A stretch of DNA of 64,000 nucleotides. Source: Natronosalvus vescus (GTDB lineage Archaea; Halobacteriota; Halobacteria; Halobacteriales; Natrialbaceae). The position numbers and the translations under genes were made by a program. Location: contig NZ_CP099546.1 of assembly GCF_023973145.1 (NCBI RefSeq), positions 620,001 through 684,000 of the forward strand. Direction: 5' to 3'. Each line of letters opens with the position of its first letter. Position 1 is the first letter of the stretch. Shown in pieces: positions 1,421 through 32,336 of the stretch. The notes below the pieces were generated by a model. The model saw only the letters and a program-made list of their open reading frames with translations, did no database searches and was not told where the DNA came from.

Positions 1421-1580
1421 ACCGAGAAATAGAAACCGCGTATACAAACACGTTGGTATCCGCAAGAAACGGATGCCAATATCCGTTCACGCCTGAAATT
1501 CGTTGAGAAATGCTGGAAAATGTTGATCTATTTATAACTGGTCTTGTAAATTATCCAAAATTCGAAACCGACGACGAGAC

Positions 1581-1590
1581 ATTTATATAC
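1581..1590 (+). promoter_or_regulatory. TATA box of the ABC importer operon
   Basis: ATTTATATAC ends 27 bases before the ATG at 1618, so transcription should start within a few bases of the start codon. The surrounding 1530-1600 region is distinctly AT-rich compared with the coding DNA on both sides. Confidence 0.65.
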
Positions 1591-1617
1591 TTTTACCCAA
1601 ACCTATTGGGTGTAGCA

Positions 1618-3279
1618 ATGGGAACACATAACACATCACGCAGAACGGTGCTCAAGGGTGCGGGGGCGGCTGGGGTAGCAGGCCTCGCAGGGTGTCTCGG
1701 TGGCGGTGACGACGACGGCAACGGAGACGTCGACGGTGCCGACGAACTCGGCGAACAATTTCCAGAGATTCACTTCCTCGTACCGACTGCAGGCGTGAAC
1801 GCGTTCCGGAACGAACTCGCCACGATGGTCGCGGAGAACTGGGAAGAAATTGGCTTCGAGGTCAATCTCGAGGAGCTCGAGTTCGGTGCGCACGTCGATC
1901 AGGCAGTCGTCCAGCAGGACTTCGACGCATCGCTCCTCGGCTGGGGTGGAACGCCGGAACGGATCGACCCGCACACGTTCATCTTCGACATGCACCACTC
2001 CTCGACGACGGGGGAAGGTGGGCGGAACACGCCGGGCTACGAAAACCCGGAGTACGACGAACTCGCGGAACTGCAGGTGACGCAGGTCGACGAAGACGAA
2101 CGACAGCAGACGGTGTACGAGGCGCAGGAGATCATCGCTCGCGATCAACCGCGTACTTACGTCGCGAACGAAGGCGGCTTCCACCCGTACGCCAGCTCGC
2201 GCGTCGAGAACGTCGAGGCGGGGCTCGGTGAAGGGTTCAACTCGTTCTGGAATATGATTTCGGTCACGCCAACCGAAAGCGATACGGTTCGCTTTGGCTA
2301 CCCCTCCGAAATTATCTCGCTGAACCCGATGCAGGATCTGGCGACGCCGGACAGGCAGTTCGTCCGCCTCATTTACGATCAACTGTACCGGATCGGCCCG
2401 GACGGGATGCCGACGCCGTGGCTTGCCGTCGACGAGCCCGAAATCGAAGACGACGGGATGGTTTACACCGTCGAGGTGCGCGACGACATGACGTTCCACG
2501 ACGGCGAGGATCTCACGATCGACGACGTCGAGTTCACGTACGAGATGTACGCCGACTCGCCGACGTACGGCTCGCTCGTGGAGAACATCTCGGAGATTGA
2601 CACCTCCGGAAACGAGATTACCTTCCATCTCGATGAACCGTTTGCCCCGTTTACGGCGAACGTTCTCGGCCAGGTGTACATCTTCCCCGAACACATCTGG
2701 GGCGACGTCGAACCGGACGATCTCGCGGACTTCGAGGACGAGAACTGGGTCGGCAGCGGTCCGTTCCAGTTCCAGGACTGGGAGCGCCAAGAGGAACTCC
2801 AGCTCTCGGCGTTCGACGACCACTTCGAGACGCCGAACGCGGATACCTTCATCCGTATCCCCGGTGCGGACGTCTCACAGCTCGTGGGCGACCTCGAGGC
2901 CGGCCAGCTGGATATGCTCGGTGCGGTTCCACAGCCAGCGGCTATCGAGCGCGTGCGAGACGACGACGACCTCGATATGGAGGAGTTCGCGGCCGTCGGT
3001 TACGCGAAGATCGCCTACAACATGCGCCGCGATCATCTGGACGACGTCAACGTTCGCCGCGCACTGTCCTACGGTGTGCCCAAGGAGGACTGGGTCGAAC
3101 TCGTTCGTGACGGCATGGGAACGGTGACCCACACGACGATCTCGGAGGCCGTCGAGTTCTGGCACAACCCCGATGTCGAGCAGTTCGACGAGGATCTCGA
3201 CGCTGCACGAGCGGAACTCGCCGAAGGCGGATACGGCTGGGACGACGACGGAATGCTCCACTACGGCGCAGACCAGTAG
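1618..3279 (+). CDS. ABC transporter solute-binding lipoprotein, family 5, circularly permuted order
   Basis: A 553-residue binding protein for a peptide/nickel/oligosaccharide-type ABC importer. The N-terminus has a Tat motif (SRRTVLKG) and a lipobox with Cys26 (GLAGC), so it is an exported, lipid-anchored protein. The frame is open further upstream, but ATG 1618 fits the signal and the TATA spacing. The classical family-5 start (VRFGYPSEIISLNP, then DDMTFHDGEDLTIDDVEFTY) is found only at about residues 224-310. The stretch that usually ends the family (GFEVNLEELEF, FDASLLGWGG, NPEYDELAELQ, EAQEIIARDQPRTY) lies at about 50-215, right after the lipobox. The chain ends at LDAARAELAEGGYGWDDDG, an element that normally precedes that stretch. 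It heads the importer operon. Substrate unknown. Confidence 0.92.
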   Translation: MGTHNTSRRTVLKGAGAAGVAGLAGCLGGGDDDGNGDVDGADELGEQFPEIHFLVPTAGVNAFRNELATMVAENWEEIGFEVNLEELEFGAHVDQAVVQQDFDASLLGWGGTPERIDPHTFIFDMHHSSTTGEGGRNTPGYENPEYDELAELQVTQVDEDERQQTVYEAQEIIARDQPRTYVANEGGFHPYASSRVENVEAGLGEGFNSFWNMISVTPTESDTVRFGYPSEIISLNPMQDLATPDRQFVRLIYDQLYRIGPDGMPTPWLAVDEPEIEDDGMVYTVEVRDDMTFHDGEDLTIDDVEFTYEMYADSPTYGSLVENISEIDTSGNEITFHLDEPFAPFTANVLGQVYIFPEHIWGDVEPDDLADFEDENWVGSGPFQFQDWERQEELQLSAFDDHFETPNADTFIRIPGADVSQLVGDLEAGQLDMLGAVPQPAAIERVRDDDDLDMEEFAAVGYAKIAYNMRRDHLDDVNVRRALSYGVPKEDWVELVRDGMGTVTHTTISEAVEFWHNPDVEQFDEDLDAARAELAEGGYGWDDDGMLHYGADQ

Positions 3280-25507: not shown

Positions 25508-25560
25508 ACTCGAGTAGCGACTCGTACAACTGACCCTCACTCGAGCAGCGACTCGTACAA
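25508..25560. repeat. imperfect 31-base-period duplication of gene end
   Basis: ACTCGAGTAGCGACTCGTACAA (25508-25529) and ACTCGAGCAGCGACTCGTACAA (25539-25560) differ at one base. The second copy codes the last residues (LYESLLE) of the glycosyltransferase, and the first lies beyond its stop codon in another frame. It is probably a local slippage duplication. Confidence 0.8.
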
Positions 25561-26676
25561 TTCCCGCACCCGATCGATCGATCGATCCACCCCGAGCGCC
25601 TCCCGTCGCTCGAGGCAGTTCGCCGCCAGCTGCTCTCGGTGCTCGAGCACGGCCCGAATCCCGTCCCTGAACGACTCGAGGTCGCCTCGCTCGTAGTGGA
25701 TCCCGGTGACGCCATCCTCGACTGTCTCGGTGAGCGCGCCCGCATCGACGGCGACGACGGGCGTTCCCGTGGCGATCGATTCGAGGGCCACCAGCCCTTG
25801 GGTTTCGACCGGGCTTGGGAAGGCGAAGGCGTCGAGGCTGGCGTAAAACGCCGGCAGTTCCGACCGCTCGAGGAAGCCGAGAAACCGGGCGTCGACGCCA
25901 CGGGCGGCGGCGCGTCGTTCGAGTGCGGGACGGGCGGGGCCGTCGCCGGCGAGGACGAGGGTCACCGCCCGGGATTCGACCGCACCGCCGAACCCGGCCA
26001 CGGCGTCGATCAGTTCCTCGAGACACTTTTCGTGGCCGTGGCGGCCAGTGTAGCCGATCAGGAGCCGGTCGTTTGCTGACTCGAGTCCGTGGTGCGCTCG
26101 AAACGACCCCGCTTCCTCGGGTACCGGTCGAAACCGCTCGAGGTCGACGCCGTTGGAGACGACCGCCACCGGCGTGGAGATGCCGACCCGCTCGCGGACG
26201 TGCTCTCGGGCGGCCCTCGAGGGGGCGATGACGAGGTCTGCCCGATCGTAGAACCACCGTTCGTACGCCGTAGCCGCGGTTTGCAGCAGGCGTGTGAGAC
26301 GACCCCGGGGTGTGACGTAGCCGGCGTACTCCGCGGCCGGCGTGTGGTAGCTCGCGACCAGCGGGATATCCTGCGTTCGTGCGTAACGACTCCCGGCCAG
26401 CCCGAGTGCGAACGGCGTGTGCGCGTGCACCACGTCGGGCCTCGAGAGCCCGTTCGGAACGGTCGGCTGGCCGAGGCGGAACCCGTCGTAGAACGGAAAC
26501 GGAAGGCTCCTGACCGGAAACTCGAGGTCGCCGGGGTCGTAGTCGCCGTCGGGGAAGACAACCGCCATCTGGCCGCCCAGGCGGTGAAAGCGTTCCTGCC
26601 AGGTACTGACGGTGTAGGTGACGCCGTTGACCGTCGGCAGGTACGTATCGGTGAATGCGGCGACCTGGTCGACCAT
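25537..26676 (-). CDS. GT4-family glycosyltransferase
   Basis: A 379-residue retaining glycosyltransferase (GT-B fold). The N-terminal domain starts FTDTYLPTVNGVTYTVSTW, typical of the PimA/alpha-mannosyltransferase-like subgroup, with DVVHAHTPFALG and VASYHTPAAEYAGY. The C-terminal donor-binding domain has LLIGYTGRHGHEKCLEELID and ends in the EX7E-type motif ETQGLVALESIATGTPVV. No signal peptide; it should act at the cytoplasmic membrane face. It is last in a four-gene operon (glycosyltransferase, binding protein, PAP2, this gene), which suggests glycolipid or surface-glycan synthesis. A 22-base duplication of its 3' end follows the stop codon. Confidence 0.92.
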   Translation of the reverse strand: MVDQVAAFTDTYLPTVNGVTYTVSTWQERFHRLGGQMAVVFPDGDYDPGDLEFPVRSLPFPFYDGFRLGQPTVPNGLSRPDVVHAHTPFALGLAGSRYARTQDIPLVASYHTPAAEYAGYVTPRGRLTRLLQTAATAYERWFYDRADLVIAPSRAAREHVRERVGISTPVAVVSNGVDLERFRPVPEEAGSFRAHHGLESANDRLLIGYTGRHGHEKCLEELIDAVAGFGGAVESRAVTLVLAGDGPARPALERRAAARGVDARFLGFLERSELPAFYASLDAFAFPSPVETQGLVALESIATGTPVVAVDAGALTETVEDGVTGIHYERGDLESFRDGIRAVLEHREQLAANCLERREALGVDRSIDRVRELYESLLE

Positions 26677-26753: not shown

Positions 26754-27629
26754 TCAGTCTCGGCGGACGTACGACCGAACGCGGGTTGCGCCAGGGATCC
26801 GCTCGAGGACGGCTCCGTTTCCGATGGCGTCGTAGACCGACCAGCGACCGACGAGATACTTCGAGAGGGTGACCGAGATCCAGGCGAGGGCGATCCCGGC
26901 GACGACGTCGGTTGCCCAGTGAATGCCGAGGTACATCGTCGAGATACAGACGCTGATGCCGAGCCAGGCTGCGAGCCAGAACCAGCCGCGGTAGATGTCG
27001 CGAGTTCGATACGATAGTAGTGTGACCGTTACTGCTAGCGAAGTGTGCAGCGACGGGAAGACGTTGGTGTTGCGGTTGACCTGCCTGGTCAGGTGCTGGT
27101 ACCGTGGATACGTGTCGTACAGCAAGGCGTCGATGAGTTCGGGCATCAGGTTCCGGGGGCCGTAGGCGATGATGATCGCATAACAGACGAGGCCGAGCGT
27201 GTAGTTGAGCGTGTAGGCGGTCAGTAGCTCCCGCAACGGGCGCGTGTTCGGGAGCATAAAATACGCGACGACCGGGAAGATGAGCAAGAAGATGTAGCCG
27301 TAGATGTAGATGAACGAGAAGTACGCCGTGAGTTCCGGCGTCGCCTGTGCCTGCAGAAAGAGGATGAAGTCCCCTTCGATGTCGTAGATGACCGGTTGGG
27401 TTATCTCCCAGTCGATGAGCCAAGAGACGTCGGGGAGGTTCTGCCTGGCAACGCTGTTGAACAGCAACACCGTGACGAGCACGACCGTCACGGGAGCCAT
27501 CGCCTTCAGACGGCCTGGCCACTCACGGAGCGTTCGAACCAGTCGCTGACGGCCGACGAAGAGGGCCGTCGAGAGCACGATCAGGGTCGTAACGATGATC
27601 GCCAGCCGAACGAGCACGTCGACCAGCAT
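26754..27629 (-). CDS. PAP2-type membrane phosphatase/transferase
   Basis: A 291-residue protein with about six to seven membrane helices. The PAP2 motifs are FPSLHTSLAVTV (PSxH) and TMYLGIHWATDVVAG (HxxxD), with an upstream NRNTNV stretch. Its layout resembles the Aur1/inositol-phosphorylceramide-synthase branch more than simple lipid phosphatases. Such enzymes move or remove phosphate-linked head groups on lipids at the outer membrane face. Its ATG overlaps the stop of the preceding solute-binding lipoprotein gene (TGATG), so the two are translationally coupled. The glycosyltransferases on either side of the operon suggest a lipid-linked glycan pathway. Confidence 0.88.
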   Translation of the reverse strand: MLVDVLVRLAIIVTTLIVLSTALFVGRQRLVRTLREWPGRLKAMAPVTVVLVTVLLFNSVARQNLPDVSWLIDWEITQPVIYDIEGDFILFLQAQATPELTAYFSFIYIYGYIFLLIFPVVAYFMLPNTRPLRELLTAYTLNYTLGLVCYAIIIAYGPRNLMPELIDALLYDTYPRYQHLTRQVNRNTNVFPSLHTSLAVTVTLLSYRTRDIYRGWFWLAAWLGISVCISTMYLGIHWATDVVAGIALAWISVTLSKYLVGRWSVYDAIGNGAVLERIPGATRVRSYVRRD

Positions 27630-29446
27630 CAGGACCTCACCACCAGCGTCTCACCGTCGTACCGATACCCGGCCTCCTCGAACCCCGATCTGGCGGCCGC
27701 CGCGTCCAGTTCGCCGCCAGTTCCGTGAAACGGCACGACCGGGTCACCGTCCTCGAACGCGAGCGATTGTGGCATCCACTCGTCGAAAACGGGGGTCGCG
27801 ATGGGCGTAGCGTACCCCTCGAACACCGTTTCGGCGGCCCAGGCCTTATCGATCAGTCTGGCAACCGCCTGGCGGAAGTACGGGTTGCTACATGGGCCAC
27901 GACGGACGTTGAATCCCAGGTGGTAGAACTCCTGTGACGTCGTTTGCAACCGACGGAGTTCGTCGGTGTCCTCGAGGTCGCCGAGCGCGTAGGCCTCGAG
28001 GGGCGAGATCGTAACGTCGGCGTCGTCGTTTTCGATGAGCGCGATCGCGGACGGGCTTCGGGGATCGATCTGGGCACGAAAGGAGGTGGCCGTTGCTGCC
28101 GGGAGGTCGACATCCGGTCTGGTCGTGAAGTGGTCGTCGAAGCGCTCGAGGCTCAGGTGTTCGCGCTCGACGCGTTCGTCGAACCGGAACGGGCCGCTGC
28201 CGATCGCCGGCACGTTGTCGACGACGAGTGCCTCCGTGGCGTCCTGGGCCACCCGAACGCCGCGAACGTGTGCCGGATCCGCTCGGGGTTCCCAGATGTG
28301 CTGGGGGAGGATCGGGACGGTCAACGCTCGCTCGACGACGGCTTCGGCGGCGTCGACCTCGGCGGCGATCGTGTGGTTGTCCGGCGTCTCGATCGCGTCC
28401 GCGTCGATGGCTGACGCGAGCCCGCGATAGTGTGGGGACGGCGCGGGAACGTCGGTCTGCCCCATCGCGGTGTCTGCGAGGAACCGGTACGTAAATTCGA
28501 CGTCGTCCGCCGTTACCGGCTCGCCGTCGTGGAACGTATGGTCGTCCCTGATCGTCATTTCGAGGCGGCCGTCCTGGTACGTCCACTCACTCGCCAGCCA
28601 CGGCACCAACTCGTCGGTCTCCGGATCCGGTGTGGCAAGGGAGTCGTACAGCAACTCCATGATCACCGGCTGGTAGCGATACTCGACGGTGAGCGGGTTG
28701 ACGTTTTCAGACGGGCTCGCGTAAATGACCGTCCCACGGAGGCGTCCCGGCTCGTCCGGATCGGCCTCGGTTCCTGGCTCGAGGTCGAGATAGCCAAGTC
28801 GGGTCGCCAGGGCGTGTTCGTTCCAGCCGTCGAAGCGGGTGGTTCGGGCCAGGCGAACCTCTTCGAATCGACAGATGGGGACGAACGGTTGCTCCAGGGC
28901 CACGTACTCGAGCAGTTCTTCGACGGCGTCGCGTCGCTCCTCGCCATCGGTCACTCGCTGACGGTCGAGCAGCCGATCGACTGTCGTGTCCGCGACCCCG
29001 AACGGATTCTGCCAGCCCGCTTCTTCTGCGTACCGTGAGTACAGCGCTTCGTACAGGAAATCCGGATCGCTGCCGCCCGGGTGACGACCGACGTAGAGGT
29101 CGAAGTCGTGATTGATGAGCGTCTCTCGGCGGAACTCCTCGGAGGAACGAAGGCGAATCGAGGTGTCGATGCCGACGGTCTCGAGGTGGTCGGCGAGGCG
29201 GCGAACGATCTGGATCGCCTGTCGGTCGCCGTCAGCCGGCTGGGTCGTGATCGAGAGCGAGAGTTGGTCGAGTCGATTTCGGTTGACTGCCGTTCGAAAT
29301 TCGCGTATGCAGCCGCTGAGGCCGAGTGTAAGTCCGGTTGCCGTCGCTGCGAGCATGGAGCGGCGATCGACCCTTCCCGCGTTTCTAGTCGATGGCTCCG
29401 CTACGCTACGCTCGAACTCTGCCTCGCTTGGCCCGGTTGTGGTCAC
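27629..29446 (-). CDS. orphan family-5 solute-binding lipoprotein, circularly permuted order
   Basis: A 605-residue Tat lipoprotein starting with GTG. Twin arginines (VDRRSMLAATATGL) lead to the lipobox GLSGC with Cys46. The mature chain begins with what is normally the C-terminal part of family-5 binding proteins (ADHLETVGIDTSIRLRS, HDFDLYVGRHPGGSDPDFL, VEELLEYVALEQPFVPIC; about 60-215). The usual N-terminal part (VIYASPSENVNPLTVEYRY, DDHTFHDGEPVTADDVEFTY) begins near residue 240. It ends with LDAAAARSGFEEAGYRYDG, an element normally internal. No permease or ATPase genes are nearby. It lies between a glycosyltransferase gene and a PAP2 gene, coupled to the latter by TGATG. Ligand unknown. 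Confidence 0.9.
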   Translation of the reverse strand: MTTTGPSEAEFERSVAEPSTRNAGRVDRRSMLAATATGLTLGLSGCIREFRTAVNRNRLDQLSLSITTQPADGDRQAIQIVRRLADHLETVGIDTSIRLRSSEEFRRETLINHDFDLYVGRHPGGSDPDFLYEALYSRYAEEAGWQNPFGVADTTVDRLLDRQRVTDGEERRDAVEELLEYVALEQPFVPICRFEEVRLARTTRFDGWNEHALATRLGYLDLEPGTEADPDEPGRLRGTVIYASPSENVNPLTVEYRYQPVIMELLYDSLATPDPETDELVPWLASEWTYQDGRLEMTIRDDHTFHDGEPVTADDVEFTYRFLADTAMGQTDVPAPSPHYRGLASAIDADAIETPDNHTIAAEVDAAEAVVERALTVPILPQHIWEPRADPAHVRGVRVAQDATEALVVDNVPAIGSGPFRFDERVEREHLSLERFDDHFTTRPDVDLPAATATSFRAQIDPRSPSAIALIENDDADVTISPLEAYALGDLEDTDELRRLQTTSQEFYHLGFNVRRGPCSNPYFRQAVARLIDKAWAAETVFEGYATPIATPVFDEWMPQSLAFEDGDPVVPFHGTGGELDAAAARSGFEEAGYRYDGETLVVRS

Positions 29447-29531
29447 GTTCTCTGCGTTACTTCACCGGTAGCCGTATAACAGTATTGCGCCATCGGTCGG
29501 CGAATCGCCACCCGAACGGTTCGCGGCAACC

Positions 29532-30650
29532 TCACCGACCGTGTTCGTCGATTGCGCGGTCATATACCTCGAGCAGCCGCTCGCCGACGCGTTCGAGGCG
29601 GTGTTCGGCAGCGGTTTCCTGGGCGGCTTCGCCGAGACGTTCTCGCAGCCCCGGGTTTGCCGCCAGCCGCTCGAGGGCGCCCCGGAACTCGCGTTCGCTC
29701 GAGCAGAACAGGCAGTCGACGCCGTCGGTGTAGAACTCCCGGAAGACGGGGAGGTCGCGGAGGACGACGGCCTTCCCGCAGGCCATCGCCTCGAGGACGG
29801 CGATCCCCTGGTTCTCGGCGTGGGTCGGAAACAGAAAGACGTCGCCGGCGGCGAACGCCTCGCGTTTGTCGTCGACCCAGCCGGTGAACGTCACGTTCGG
29901 GGGTGGATTTTCTGTCCAGTGGCGAACAACAGGGCTCGCCTGGGGGCCGCTGTCATAGGGGCCGAACCAGACGAACTCGTAGGGCATCCGTACGGCGAGA
30001 CGGCAAAACGTCGAGAGCCCCTTACGCTCGAACACGTTGCCGACGGCGAAGACGACCAGGTCGTCCGCCGCGAGGCTGAACCGATCGCGCGCCGGTTCTC
30101 GAAGGCGATCGACTCCCTCGAGCGAGGCGTGGTCGACCCCGTTCGTGATCGGTTCGATGGGGGCGTCGACCGGGTAGGCCTCGAGGTGGCGTTTCGTCTG
30201 CTCGCTGGGACAGCAGACGAGGTCGGCCCGGGAGTACATATAGCGGAGATAGCGTCCGAGCGGCCCGGCGAGCGTGTTCGAGCCACGAAAGCTTCCCCGG
30301 AAGTCCTCGCGAGTGACGTGTGCGTGGAGGACGAGCGGGATGCCGTGGCGGTTGGCGTATCGAGCGACGGCAAGCGAACCGGGGCCAATAGCGTTGCAGT
30401 GGACGACGTCGTGGACGGCGATGGGCAGTGAGTCACGGAACAGCCTGACGGGAACGCCGGCGAGCGAGCCACCCCACGGATCTGTACAGACCTCAAGGTC
30501 GACCGGGTCGACGGGCAACTCGTCGTCACCGCCGTCGGCTCTCGCTCGCTCTCGAAGCCGAGTCAGCGCCCGCCGCTGCTGGGCGGCGGCCGTCCCGATG
30601 CCGCTTCGCTGGAGCGCTCTCTCGAGTTCCAGGTAGGTGAGTACGCGCAC
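29532..30650 (-). CDS. GT4-family glycosyltransferase
   Basis: A 372-residue glycosyltransferase, the first gene of the operon. The frame is open far upstream, but the first family-like start is GTG 30650 (VRVLTYLELERALQRSG). The acceptor domain includes VVHCNAIGPGSLAVARY and VLHAHVTREDFRGSF. The donor domain has VVFAVGNVFERKGLSTF and the EX7E-type motif ENQGIAVLEAMACGKAVV. Cytoplasmic with peripheral membrane binding likely. It precedes the orphan binding protein by 86 bases and is divergent from the RNase P subunit gene. Donor and acceptor cannot be told. Confidence 0.9.
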   Translation of the reverse strand: MRVLTYLELERALQRSGIGTAAAQQRRALTRLRERARADGGDDELPVDPVDLEVCTDPWGGSLAGVPVRLFRDSLPIAVHDVVHCNAIGPGSLAVARYANRHGIPLVLHAHVTREDFRGSFRGSNTLAGPLGRYLRYMYSRADLVCCPSEQTKRHLEAYPVDAPIEPITNGVDHASLEGVDRLREPARDRFSLAADDLVVFAVGNVFERKGLSTFCRLAVRMPYEFVWFGPYDSGPQASPVVRHWTENPPPNVTFTGWVDDKREAFAAGDVFLFPTHAENQGIAVLEAMACGKAVVLRDLPVFREFYTDGVDCLFCSSEREFRGALERLAANPGLRERLGEAAQETAAEHRLERVGERLLEVYDRAIDEHGR

Positions 30651-31176: not shown

Positions 31177-31425
31177 ATGGACGAACAAGAGCTCAAGCGC
31201 CGCGCACACGACCTCGACGTCACCGTGTGGGTCGGCAAGGGCGGGATCGACTCGGTCGTCGACGAACTGAACGACCAGCTCGCGAACGAGAACCTGATCA
31301 AGGTCAAGTTCCTCCGGGCGGCTCGAGCGGGCGATCCGACCGAGGAGAAAGCGGCCGACCTCGCTGACCGCGTCAACGGCCAGCTCATCGAGACCCGTGG
31401 ACACACCGCAGTGATCTATCGATGA
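31177..31425 (+). CDS. YhbY/CRM-domain RNA-binding protein
   Basis: An 82-residue protein consisting of one CRS1-YhbY (CRM) domain, which binds ribosomal precursor RNA. The family signature is seen as VTVWVGKGGIDSVVDELNDQ (GKGG loop) and ENLIKVKFLRAARAG, with NGQLIETRGHTAVIYR at the end. ATG 31177 is chosen over an upstream in-frame ATG at 31147 because the domain begins here. Its last bases overlap the MscS gene by ATGA. Confidence 0.92.
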   Translation: MDEQELKRRAHDLDVTVWVGKGGIDSVVDELNDQLANENLIKVKFLRAARAGDPTEEKAADLADRVNGQLIETRGHTAVIYR

Positions 31426-32336
31426 TTGGGGTTCCCTTGCAGGCCGACGGGGACGACCTCGGTTTTCTCGGTGATCAGCTCGAATCCCTCGTCGGTGACG
31501 CCCTGGCGAGTACGCTCGAGAGCGCGATCATCTTCGTTCTCGCGTTTCTCTTCCTCTGGATCGTTGGCCGACTCGTCGTCGGGGCGCTCGTCAAGCGGGC
31601 GCTCGATCGGCGCGAACTCGATCGACACGCCCAGAAACCGCTGTTGATGATCACTCGGTTCGCGATTGCGTTCGTCGCCATCGCGATCGCGTTCGGGGCT
31701 GCCGATTATGGGAACTTCCTCGTGTCGATGGCCGGCATCGCCGCCGCCGGGGCGCTCGCAGTTGGGTTTGCCATGCAAAGCGTGATCTCGAACTTCGTCG
31801 CTGGCGTGTTCATCTACACCGACCGACCGTTTCGCATTGGGGACTGGATCGAGTGGGACAACGGTGATTACTCGGGTATCGTCGAGGACATCAGCCTGCG
31901 GGTCACCCGCGTCCGCACGTTCGACAACGAACTGCTGACCGTCCCGAACAGTGAACTCACCGGCGGCGTCCTCATGAACCCCGTCGACGCCGACAGGCTC
32001 CGGCAGAAGTTCGTCTTCGGTATCGGGTACGACGACGACATCCAGCAAGCCACCGACATCATCATCGAGGAAGCCAAGCGCCACCCCGACATCATGGAAG
32101 ACCCTGCACCGAGCGTCCGGCTGACCGAACTCGGCGACTCCGACGTCGGCCTCCAGTCGCGCTTCTGGATCGCCAACCCCTCCCGGGCCGACTTCGTCCG
32201 GATCCGCGGGGAGTACGTCCAGTCGGTGAAAGAGCGATTCGACGAGGAGGGCATCGACATCCCCTACCCCGTCCGCACGCTCGAGGGTGCGCTGGGGCTC
32301 GAGACCCCGGCGGCGCTCGAGGTGGCGGACGACTGA
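31422..32336 (+). CDS. MscS-family mechanosensitive channel
   Basis: A 304-residue channel that opens under membrane tension to release solutes on hypo-osmotic shock, a real threat for a salt-in halophile. Two to three helices come first (IIFVLAFLFLWIVGRLVVGA, MITRFAIAFVAIAIAFGAA). The pore helix MAGIAAAGALAVGFAMQSVI has the Gly/Ala packing typical of MscS. The beta domain follows (RPFRIGDWIEWDNGDYSGIV, RTFDNELLTVPNSEL), then the C-terminal alpha/beta domain. The start overlaps the yhbY stop by four bases, so they are co-translated. Confidence 0.95.
   Translation: MIGVPLQADGDDLGFLGDQLESLVGDALASTLESAIIFVLAFLFLWIVGRLVVGALVKRALDRRELDRHAQKPLLMITRFAIAFVAIAIAFGAADYGNFLVSMAGIAAAGALAVGFAMQSVISNFVAGVFIYTDRPFRIGDWIEWDNGDYSGIVEDISLRVTRVRTFDNELLTVPNSELTGGVLMNPVDADRLRQKFVFGIGYDDDIQQATDIIIEEAKRHPDIMEDPAPSVRLTELGDSDVGLQSRFWIANPSRADFVRIRGEYVQSVKERFDEEGIDIPYPVRTLEGALGLETPAALEVADD

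Follow-up and report, generated by a model that had tools for sequence, protein, structure and literature searches.

Two mycobacterial lipoproteins that resemble solute-binding proteins (SBPs), LpqZ and FecB, are orphans without importers and associate with the arabinosyltransferases AftA and AftB (PMC12802301). The authors concluded that such SBP-like lipoproteins have been repurposed to aid envelope enzymes (PMC12802301). Another lipoprotein of Mycobacterium, LpqW, channels PIM4 towards lipomannan (PMC3229680). For the haloarchaea, polar-lipid synthesis has been described as not completely resolved (PMC8305020).

The locus described here lies in a 64,000-nucleotide stretch of the Natronosalvus vescus genome (contig NZ_CP099546.1, positions 620,001 to 684,000), the whole of which was analysed and is referred to as the window. 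A first-pass annotation made from the sequence had drawn attention to a solute-binding Tat lipoprotein gene at 27629-29446, and had missed the PAP2 gene at 26754-27629 that overlaps its stop codon. Features are given below in window coordinates; all lie on the minus strand.

25537..26676, minus strand: GT4 glycosyltransferase, glycolipid-synthase-like; adjoins the pair only in some of the Natrialbaceae
26754..27629, minus strand: PAP2_3-family integral membrane enzyme, 291 aa (PF14378, E 3e-19)
27629..29446, minus strand: Tat lipoprotein of 605 aa, a permuted family-5 solute-binding protein; GTG start
27632..28753, minus strand: classical N-terminal part of the lipoprotein, placed second, residues 232-605, ending EEAGYRYDGETLVVRS (PF00496 profile positions 1-283 and model alignment)
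28781..29278, minus strand: C-terminal-type segment of the lipoprotein, placed first, residues 57-222 (PF00496 profile positions 289-363 and the C-terminal parts of solved family-5 proteins)
29309..29365, minus strand: twin-arginine motif to lipobox Cys, residues 28-46, RRSMLAATATGLTLGLSGC, read from the sequence
29475..29479, minus strand: TATA-like element, some 30 bases before the lipoprotein GTG, read in the sequence
29532..30605, minus strand: GT4 glycosyltransferase, IagA/BgsA glycolipid-anchor-like; adjoins the pair only in some of the Natrialbaceae

The lipoprotein carries the twin-arginine motif and lipobox cysteine (Cys46) of Tat-exported archaeal lipoproteins, from which its anchoring is predicted; R28 and R29 of the twin-arginine pair and G45 and C46 of the lipobox were invariant in 22 homologues. 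The TATA-like element suggests that the gene has its own, nearly leaderless transcript. By sequence the protein belongs to family 5, with a PF00496 match of 157.7 bits against a curated cut-off of 32.4. The first segment contains the motifs GRHPG..DPD and GWQNPFG, and the boundary of the second (residue 232) was set at the cut position in an alignment of permuted proteins.

The segment order had been read as permuted in the first-pass annotation, and this was confirmed with high confidence by the PF00496 profile, by rotation in silico and by the swapped alignment of solved proteins. PF00496 covered residues 279-599 with positions 1-283 only of its 368 (E 5.7e-46), and the protein ends there. 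The absent part of the profile (289-363) was located at the N-terminus, at about residues 65-138, in a match that is weak by itself (E 0.0017). When the protein was rotated, one match spanning profile positions 1-363 was obtained (E 1.5e-49), and the score rose from 157.7 to 169.5 bits. The solved protein 4pfu was aligned in swapped order, its residues 17-342 with lipoprotein residues 244-595 and its residues 361-509 with residues 67-208. In an AlphaFold2 model (pLDDT 84.1, pTM 0.83), residues 228-605 were superimposed on residues 1-328 of NikZ (4oet; Z 22.6, rmsd 4.0, 323 aligned), and the model was likewise matched to 1xoc (Z 22.4, rmsd 2.9, 329 aligned); by these alignments the classical N-terminal part has the family-5 fold. 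The structure alignment barely covered model residues 57-225, and for the first segment the match therefore depends on sequence profiles. The classical linear order, which is usual for family 5 and not strictly defining, is not that of this protein, which is therefore filed as a permuted variant of the fold. A gene fusion or a duplicated C-terminal part was considered and rejected, since the protein stops at profile position 283 and no second copy follows. In genome G218 a 1011-aa ORF (L160 5026-7398) was observed to consist of two family-5 proteins fused head to tail; if permutation proceeds by duplication and truncation, an intermediate of this sort would be expected.

A second window protein, at 1.5 kb (1510-3279), had been noted as having the same rearranged order at low similarity, and was found to be colinear with the lipoprotein over 79-602 (26% identity, E 2e-25). 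The comparison of their cut points that had been proposed gave no difference: one cut point is common to all 45 halobacterial permuted proteins aligned, both window proteins included. Neither window protein has close relatives in normal order. The single cut point, together with the occurrence of the arrangement in many Halobacteria and a few other archaea, agrees with the earlier view of an old, stable architecture. Chance or local rearrangement was rejected as the source of the order on the basis of the same cut point and of orthologues in 73 of 116 genomes of the class.

The ATG of the downstream gene shares one base with the TGA stop of the lipoprotein gene (TGATG). Its product was matched by PF14378 at 70 bits (cut-off 27), and the catalytic residues His195, His237 and Asp241 were invariant in 15 homologues. 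The profile match and the His/His/Asp set place it in the PAP2_3 (AUR1-like) family, with a predicted lipid phosphatase or phosphotransferase activity. The model of this protein was fair only (pLDDT 79) and weaker in the catalytic loop (pLDDT 52-65). It matched AUR1 best (Z 17.7), followed by LpxE (14.8), a sphingomyelin-synthase-related protein (13.7) and glucose-6-phosphatase (13.2); bacterial acid phosphatases gave Z 11-12. Loops with catalytic residues had a net charge that was negative or zero, and in the loops alternating with them it was mostly positive, which suggests that the active site is external, on the same side as the Tat lipoprotein.

To relate the two families across the class, 116 Halobacteria genomes were searched separately with a lipoprotein profile and a PAP2 profile. 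Both families were present in 73 genomes, neither in 43, and one only in 0 (Fisher 8e-33, a value that is indicative and too small because the genomes are related). The PAP2 profile was derived from PAP2 genes adjoining lipoprotein genes, some of the searched genomes contributed rows to the profiles, and scoring covered a limited number of candidates per genome. PAP2 lay directly downstream on the same strand for 92/105 lipoprotein genes, with a median of 16 bases between matched ends, and the one-base stop/start overlap was frequent among the pairs at the surveyed loci. Of the 13 lipoprotein genes without an adjacent PAP2 gene, 12 were second copies in SBP-PAP2-SBP tandem arrays; the other belongs to genome G064, in which the lipoprotein and PAP2 genes lie apart. 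Lipoprotein genes never outnumbered PAP2 genes in any of the 116 genomes. An unpartnered PAP2 gene was present elsewhere in 13/13 genomes with an unpartnered lipoprotein gene, against 15/60 of the others (p 4e-7, likewise too small for related genomes).

The tandem arrays were seen at loci L046-L050, L052, L053, L070 and L075, where no same-strand PAP2 gene was found just downstream of the second SBP gene; class-sample genomes with such arrays carry an unpartnered PAP2 gene elsewhere. Loci L135-L138 hold unpartnered PAP2 genes of the same family (237-306 bits in the class sample), and no common neighbour was found among the four loci of unpaired PAP2 genes compared. In Natronorubrum bangense the SBP-PAP2 array on the chromosome and that on the plasmid (L042 and L043) are apparently the same, with identical match positions and scores, which suggests a recent copy.

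A profile search of the N. vescus genome returned 13 family-5 genes, 3 of them permuted. A PAP2_3 gene (L001 7088-7951) likewise comes after the third permuted copy (L001 8122-10023), and pairing is thus kept in two diverged lipoprotein versions, both within this genome. This third pair (L001 7088-10023) corresponds to C1 about 1,547,090-1,550,020. Its lipoprotein contains a repeat-like insert rich in Asp and Glu, several dozen residues long, which was seen also at L103. Across the surveyed loci, genes like 27629-29446 or like the third copy were nearly all directly followed by PAP2 on the same strand. The genomic partnership is well supported, and we hold it with high confidence: lipoprotein and PAP2 form a real, conserved two-gene unit in many Halobacteria, apparently undescribed before. 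In the literature searched, which takes in few subscription journals, neither permuted family-5 proteins nor an SBP-PAP2 pair were found described.

No ABC permease or ATPase genes were matched between 20 and 38 kb of the window, in keeping with the first-pass annotation, which had seen no importer nearby. A nearby importer in other genomes, which it had named as a result that would speak against its reading, was looked for, and no importer genes were found within the PAP2-linked gene units of orthologues. An importer cluster near one SBP-PAP2 pair, in Haloterrigena salina (L054 8734-13075), lies on the opposite strand. With importer genes missing here and from the orthologue units, the lipoprotein is not filed as an ABC importer receptor. 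The earlier suggestion that it might be shared with a remote importer was not upheld, the gene having a dedicated partner, PAP2, that is no importer component. Nearly all surveyed relatives of the 1.5 kb protein have opp-type permease and ATPase genes directly after them.

The two flanking GT4 genes are of glycolipid type and hint at envelope glycolipids. An MscS-type channel gene (window 31422-32336) lies upstream of the lipoprotein gene on the opposite strand; such a gene was found beside the pair in most Natrialbaceae loci and was not seen there in other families. Outside the Natrialbaceae the pair alone was kept and the surroundings were unrelated. The flanking glycosyltransferases and MscS were rejected as members of the core unit, as they were found with it only within the Natrialbaceae.

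In a phylum-wide sample of 196 genomes, counted with the relatives of the 1.5 kb protein kept apart, the PAP2-linked lipoprotein was found in Halobacteria only, in 18 genomes (E 1e-40 or better). Distant PAP2 relatives occurred in other families of the phylum, methanogens among them, and no such lipoprotein was found there; the enzyme family therefore does not always need a lipoprotein. Co-conservation of the two proteins is compatible with either direction of dependence.

A tree was built from sequences rotated to one order. PAP2-linked proteins formed one clade (100/100), classical haloarchaeal proteins lay to one side of a branch (100/99), and in 98% of bootstrap trees the importer-linked permuted proteins did not form a single group. 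Most permuted relatives outside the PAP2-linked clade adjoin opp-type importer genes. The tree pattern speaks for a single permutation within Halobacteria, in proteins that were linked to importers at first and of which some later changed partner to PAP2; a permuted importer subunit thus seems, from the sequences, to have exchanged its importer for an AUR1/LpxE-like lipid-phosphate enzyme. Permuted family-5 proteins beside importer genes were also found in four genomes of another archaeal family of the phylum (L156-L159). At L156 a C-terminal membrane anchor apparently takes the place of the lipobox. These non-halobacterial permuted proteins fell among the classical ones in the best tree, and a single group of all permuted proteins was not rejected (AU p 0.197); on these sequences a single origin of the permutation across all archaea is undecided. 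The conserved residues peculiar to the PAP2-linked lipoproteins include D74, P148, D325, P378 and G575, which were invariant, and W145 and Q146, conserved at 96% and 92%, respectively. None of these residues is conserved in the importer-linked relatives, and they are candidates for a ligand site or an enzyme interface. Clade-specific residues fall in P70-D74, W145-P148, D325, P336-R341 and F573-G578.

The lipoprotein is probably a dedicated extracytoplasmic partner of the downstream PAP2_3 enzyme, either binding and presenting a ligand or regulating it. A permuted family-5 binding protein would have left the role of ABC-importer subunit and become the extracytoplasmic partner of an AUR1/LpxE-like enzyme, both proteins being placed on the outer side of the membrane. 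Lipid head groups, lipid-linked glycans and sugar phosphates are the likeliest candidates for the ligand that the lipoprotein would bind. The lipoprotein would present this ligand to the PAP2 active site or regulate the enzyme, whose predicted reaction, hydrolysis or transfer of a lipid phosphate, would belong to the metabolism of envelope lipids or glycans. The outward active site, the physical or functional interaction, the ligand type and the reaction are what we infer from the data above. Confidence is moderate for a functional role of the pair at the outer membrane face and low for its ligand and reaction. The proposal in the first-pass annotation of a ligand-presenting lipoprotein is compatible with such a partnership, with the amendment that the receiver would be the PAP2 enzyme. 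We also put forward, tentatively and as somewhat doubtful, that the lipoprotein is an obligate presenting or regulatory subunit of an AUR1-like lipid phosphotransferase, and the pair a ligand-gated, head-group-remodelling surface system of two genes not previously described in Halobacteria.

Other functions were weighed against the same data. The pair might be nutritional, the lipoprotein capturing a soluble phosphorylated compound, PAP2 acting as a surface phosphatase and the product being imported by other means. AccA, a solved relative of the lipoprotein fold, binds agrocinopine and glucose-2-phosphate, and the PAP2 model does show similarity to glucose-6-phosphatase (Z 13.2) and, at Z 11-12, to acid phosphatases of bacteria; fold similarity, however, does not fix a ligand, the lipid-acting AUR1 and LpxE match the model better (Z 17.7 and 14.8), and no phosphate-uptake or sugar-import gene recurred beside the pair in the loci surveyed. 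We consider such organophosphate scavenging unlikely. Less probable still, at the level of an outside chance, is that the protein is a conventional solute receptor docking to an importer whose genes lie elsewhere, with PAP2 as a co-transcribed bystander. The family-5 fold is kept, many residues are common to the importer-linked permuted relatives and family-5 importers are indeed encoded elsewhere in the genome. Perfect co-occurrence in 116 genomes, copy numbers kept in step and adjacency in two diverged paralogue groups are not, however, what a bystander would be expected to show, and the orthologue gene units are without an importer.

A ligand sensor, in which the lipoprotein would switch PAP2 on or off in response to an extracellular ligand so that lipid composition responds and no substrate is delivered, draws on the same genomic evidence as the presenting or regulating partner and overlaps its regulatory form. 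LpqW provides a reported case of a lipoprotein that regulates glycolipid flux (PMC3229680). As a distinct explanation we give the sensor only a small share of the probability, about that of scavenging: no sensor or regulator gene recurred nearby in the loci surveyed, and substrate delivery and allosteric control look the same in sequence.

The presenting or regulating partnership, if correct, would be an archaeal case in which an envelope enzyme has enlisted a binding protein that once served transport, and the pair would offer a concrete handle on haloarchaeal polar-lipid synthesis. It also suggests that the name of peptide-transport receptor, if given to all family-5 proteins, is mistaken for one haloarchaeal group that is common.

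Among described proteins, NikZ, AppA, DppA and OppA (PF00496) are homologous to the lipoprotein in sequence and fold; compared with them its segments are swapped, and a PAP2 partner stands in place of adjacent importer genes. The 1510-3279 protein and its relatives have the same permutation and the same cut point, but are nearly all importer-linked and fall outside the PAP2-linked clade. The PAP2 partner shares fold and catalytic His/His/Asp with the inositol phosphorylceramide synthase AUR1, LpxE and PgpB, at a low identity of about 16%. Kei1, the known companion of AUR1, is not known to be related to SBPs. LpqW, which we take to have a family-5-like fold in classical order, resembles the haloarchaeal protein as a lipoprotein without an importer role, its own setting being glycolipid assembly; it acts on PIM/LAM flux, and we know of no PAP2 partner for it.

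On our reading the haloarchaeal pair may, by analogy, work like LpqZ/FecB and LpqW. Like LpqZ and FecB, the lipoprotein has a solute-binding fold, no importer genes and evidence linking it to an outer-face membrane enzyme, and the absence of an importer operon across the lineage is that of an orphan SBP-like accessory lipoprotein. Its partnership with the enzyme is a genomic one, so it is not filed as a proven member of the LpqZ/FecB kind: the arabinosyltransferase partners were co-purified, whereas the haloarchaeal pair is known from linkage and co-occurrence. LpqZ and FecB resemble ProX and ferric-citrate/siderophore binding proteins rather than family 5, and are not described as permuted. 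The pair would thus parallel these recent mycobacterial cases, from which it differs in the family of the fold, the class of enzyme and the linkage of the genes, and also in having a natural circular permutation.
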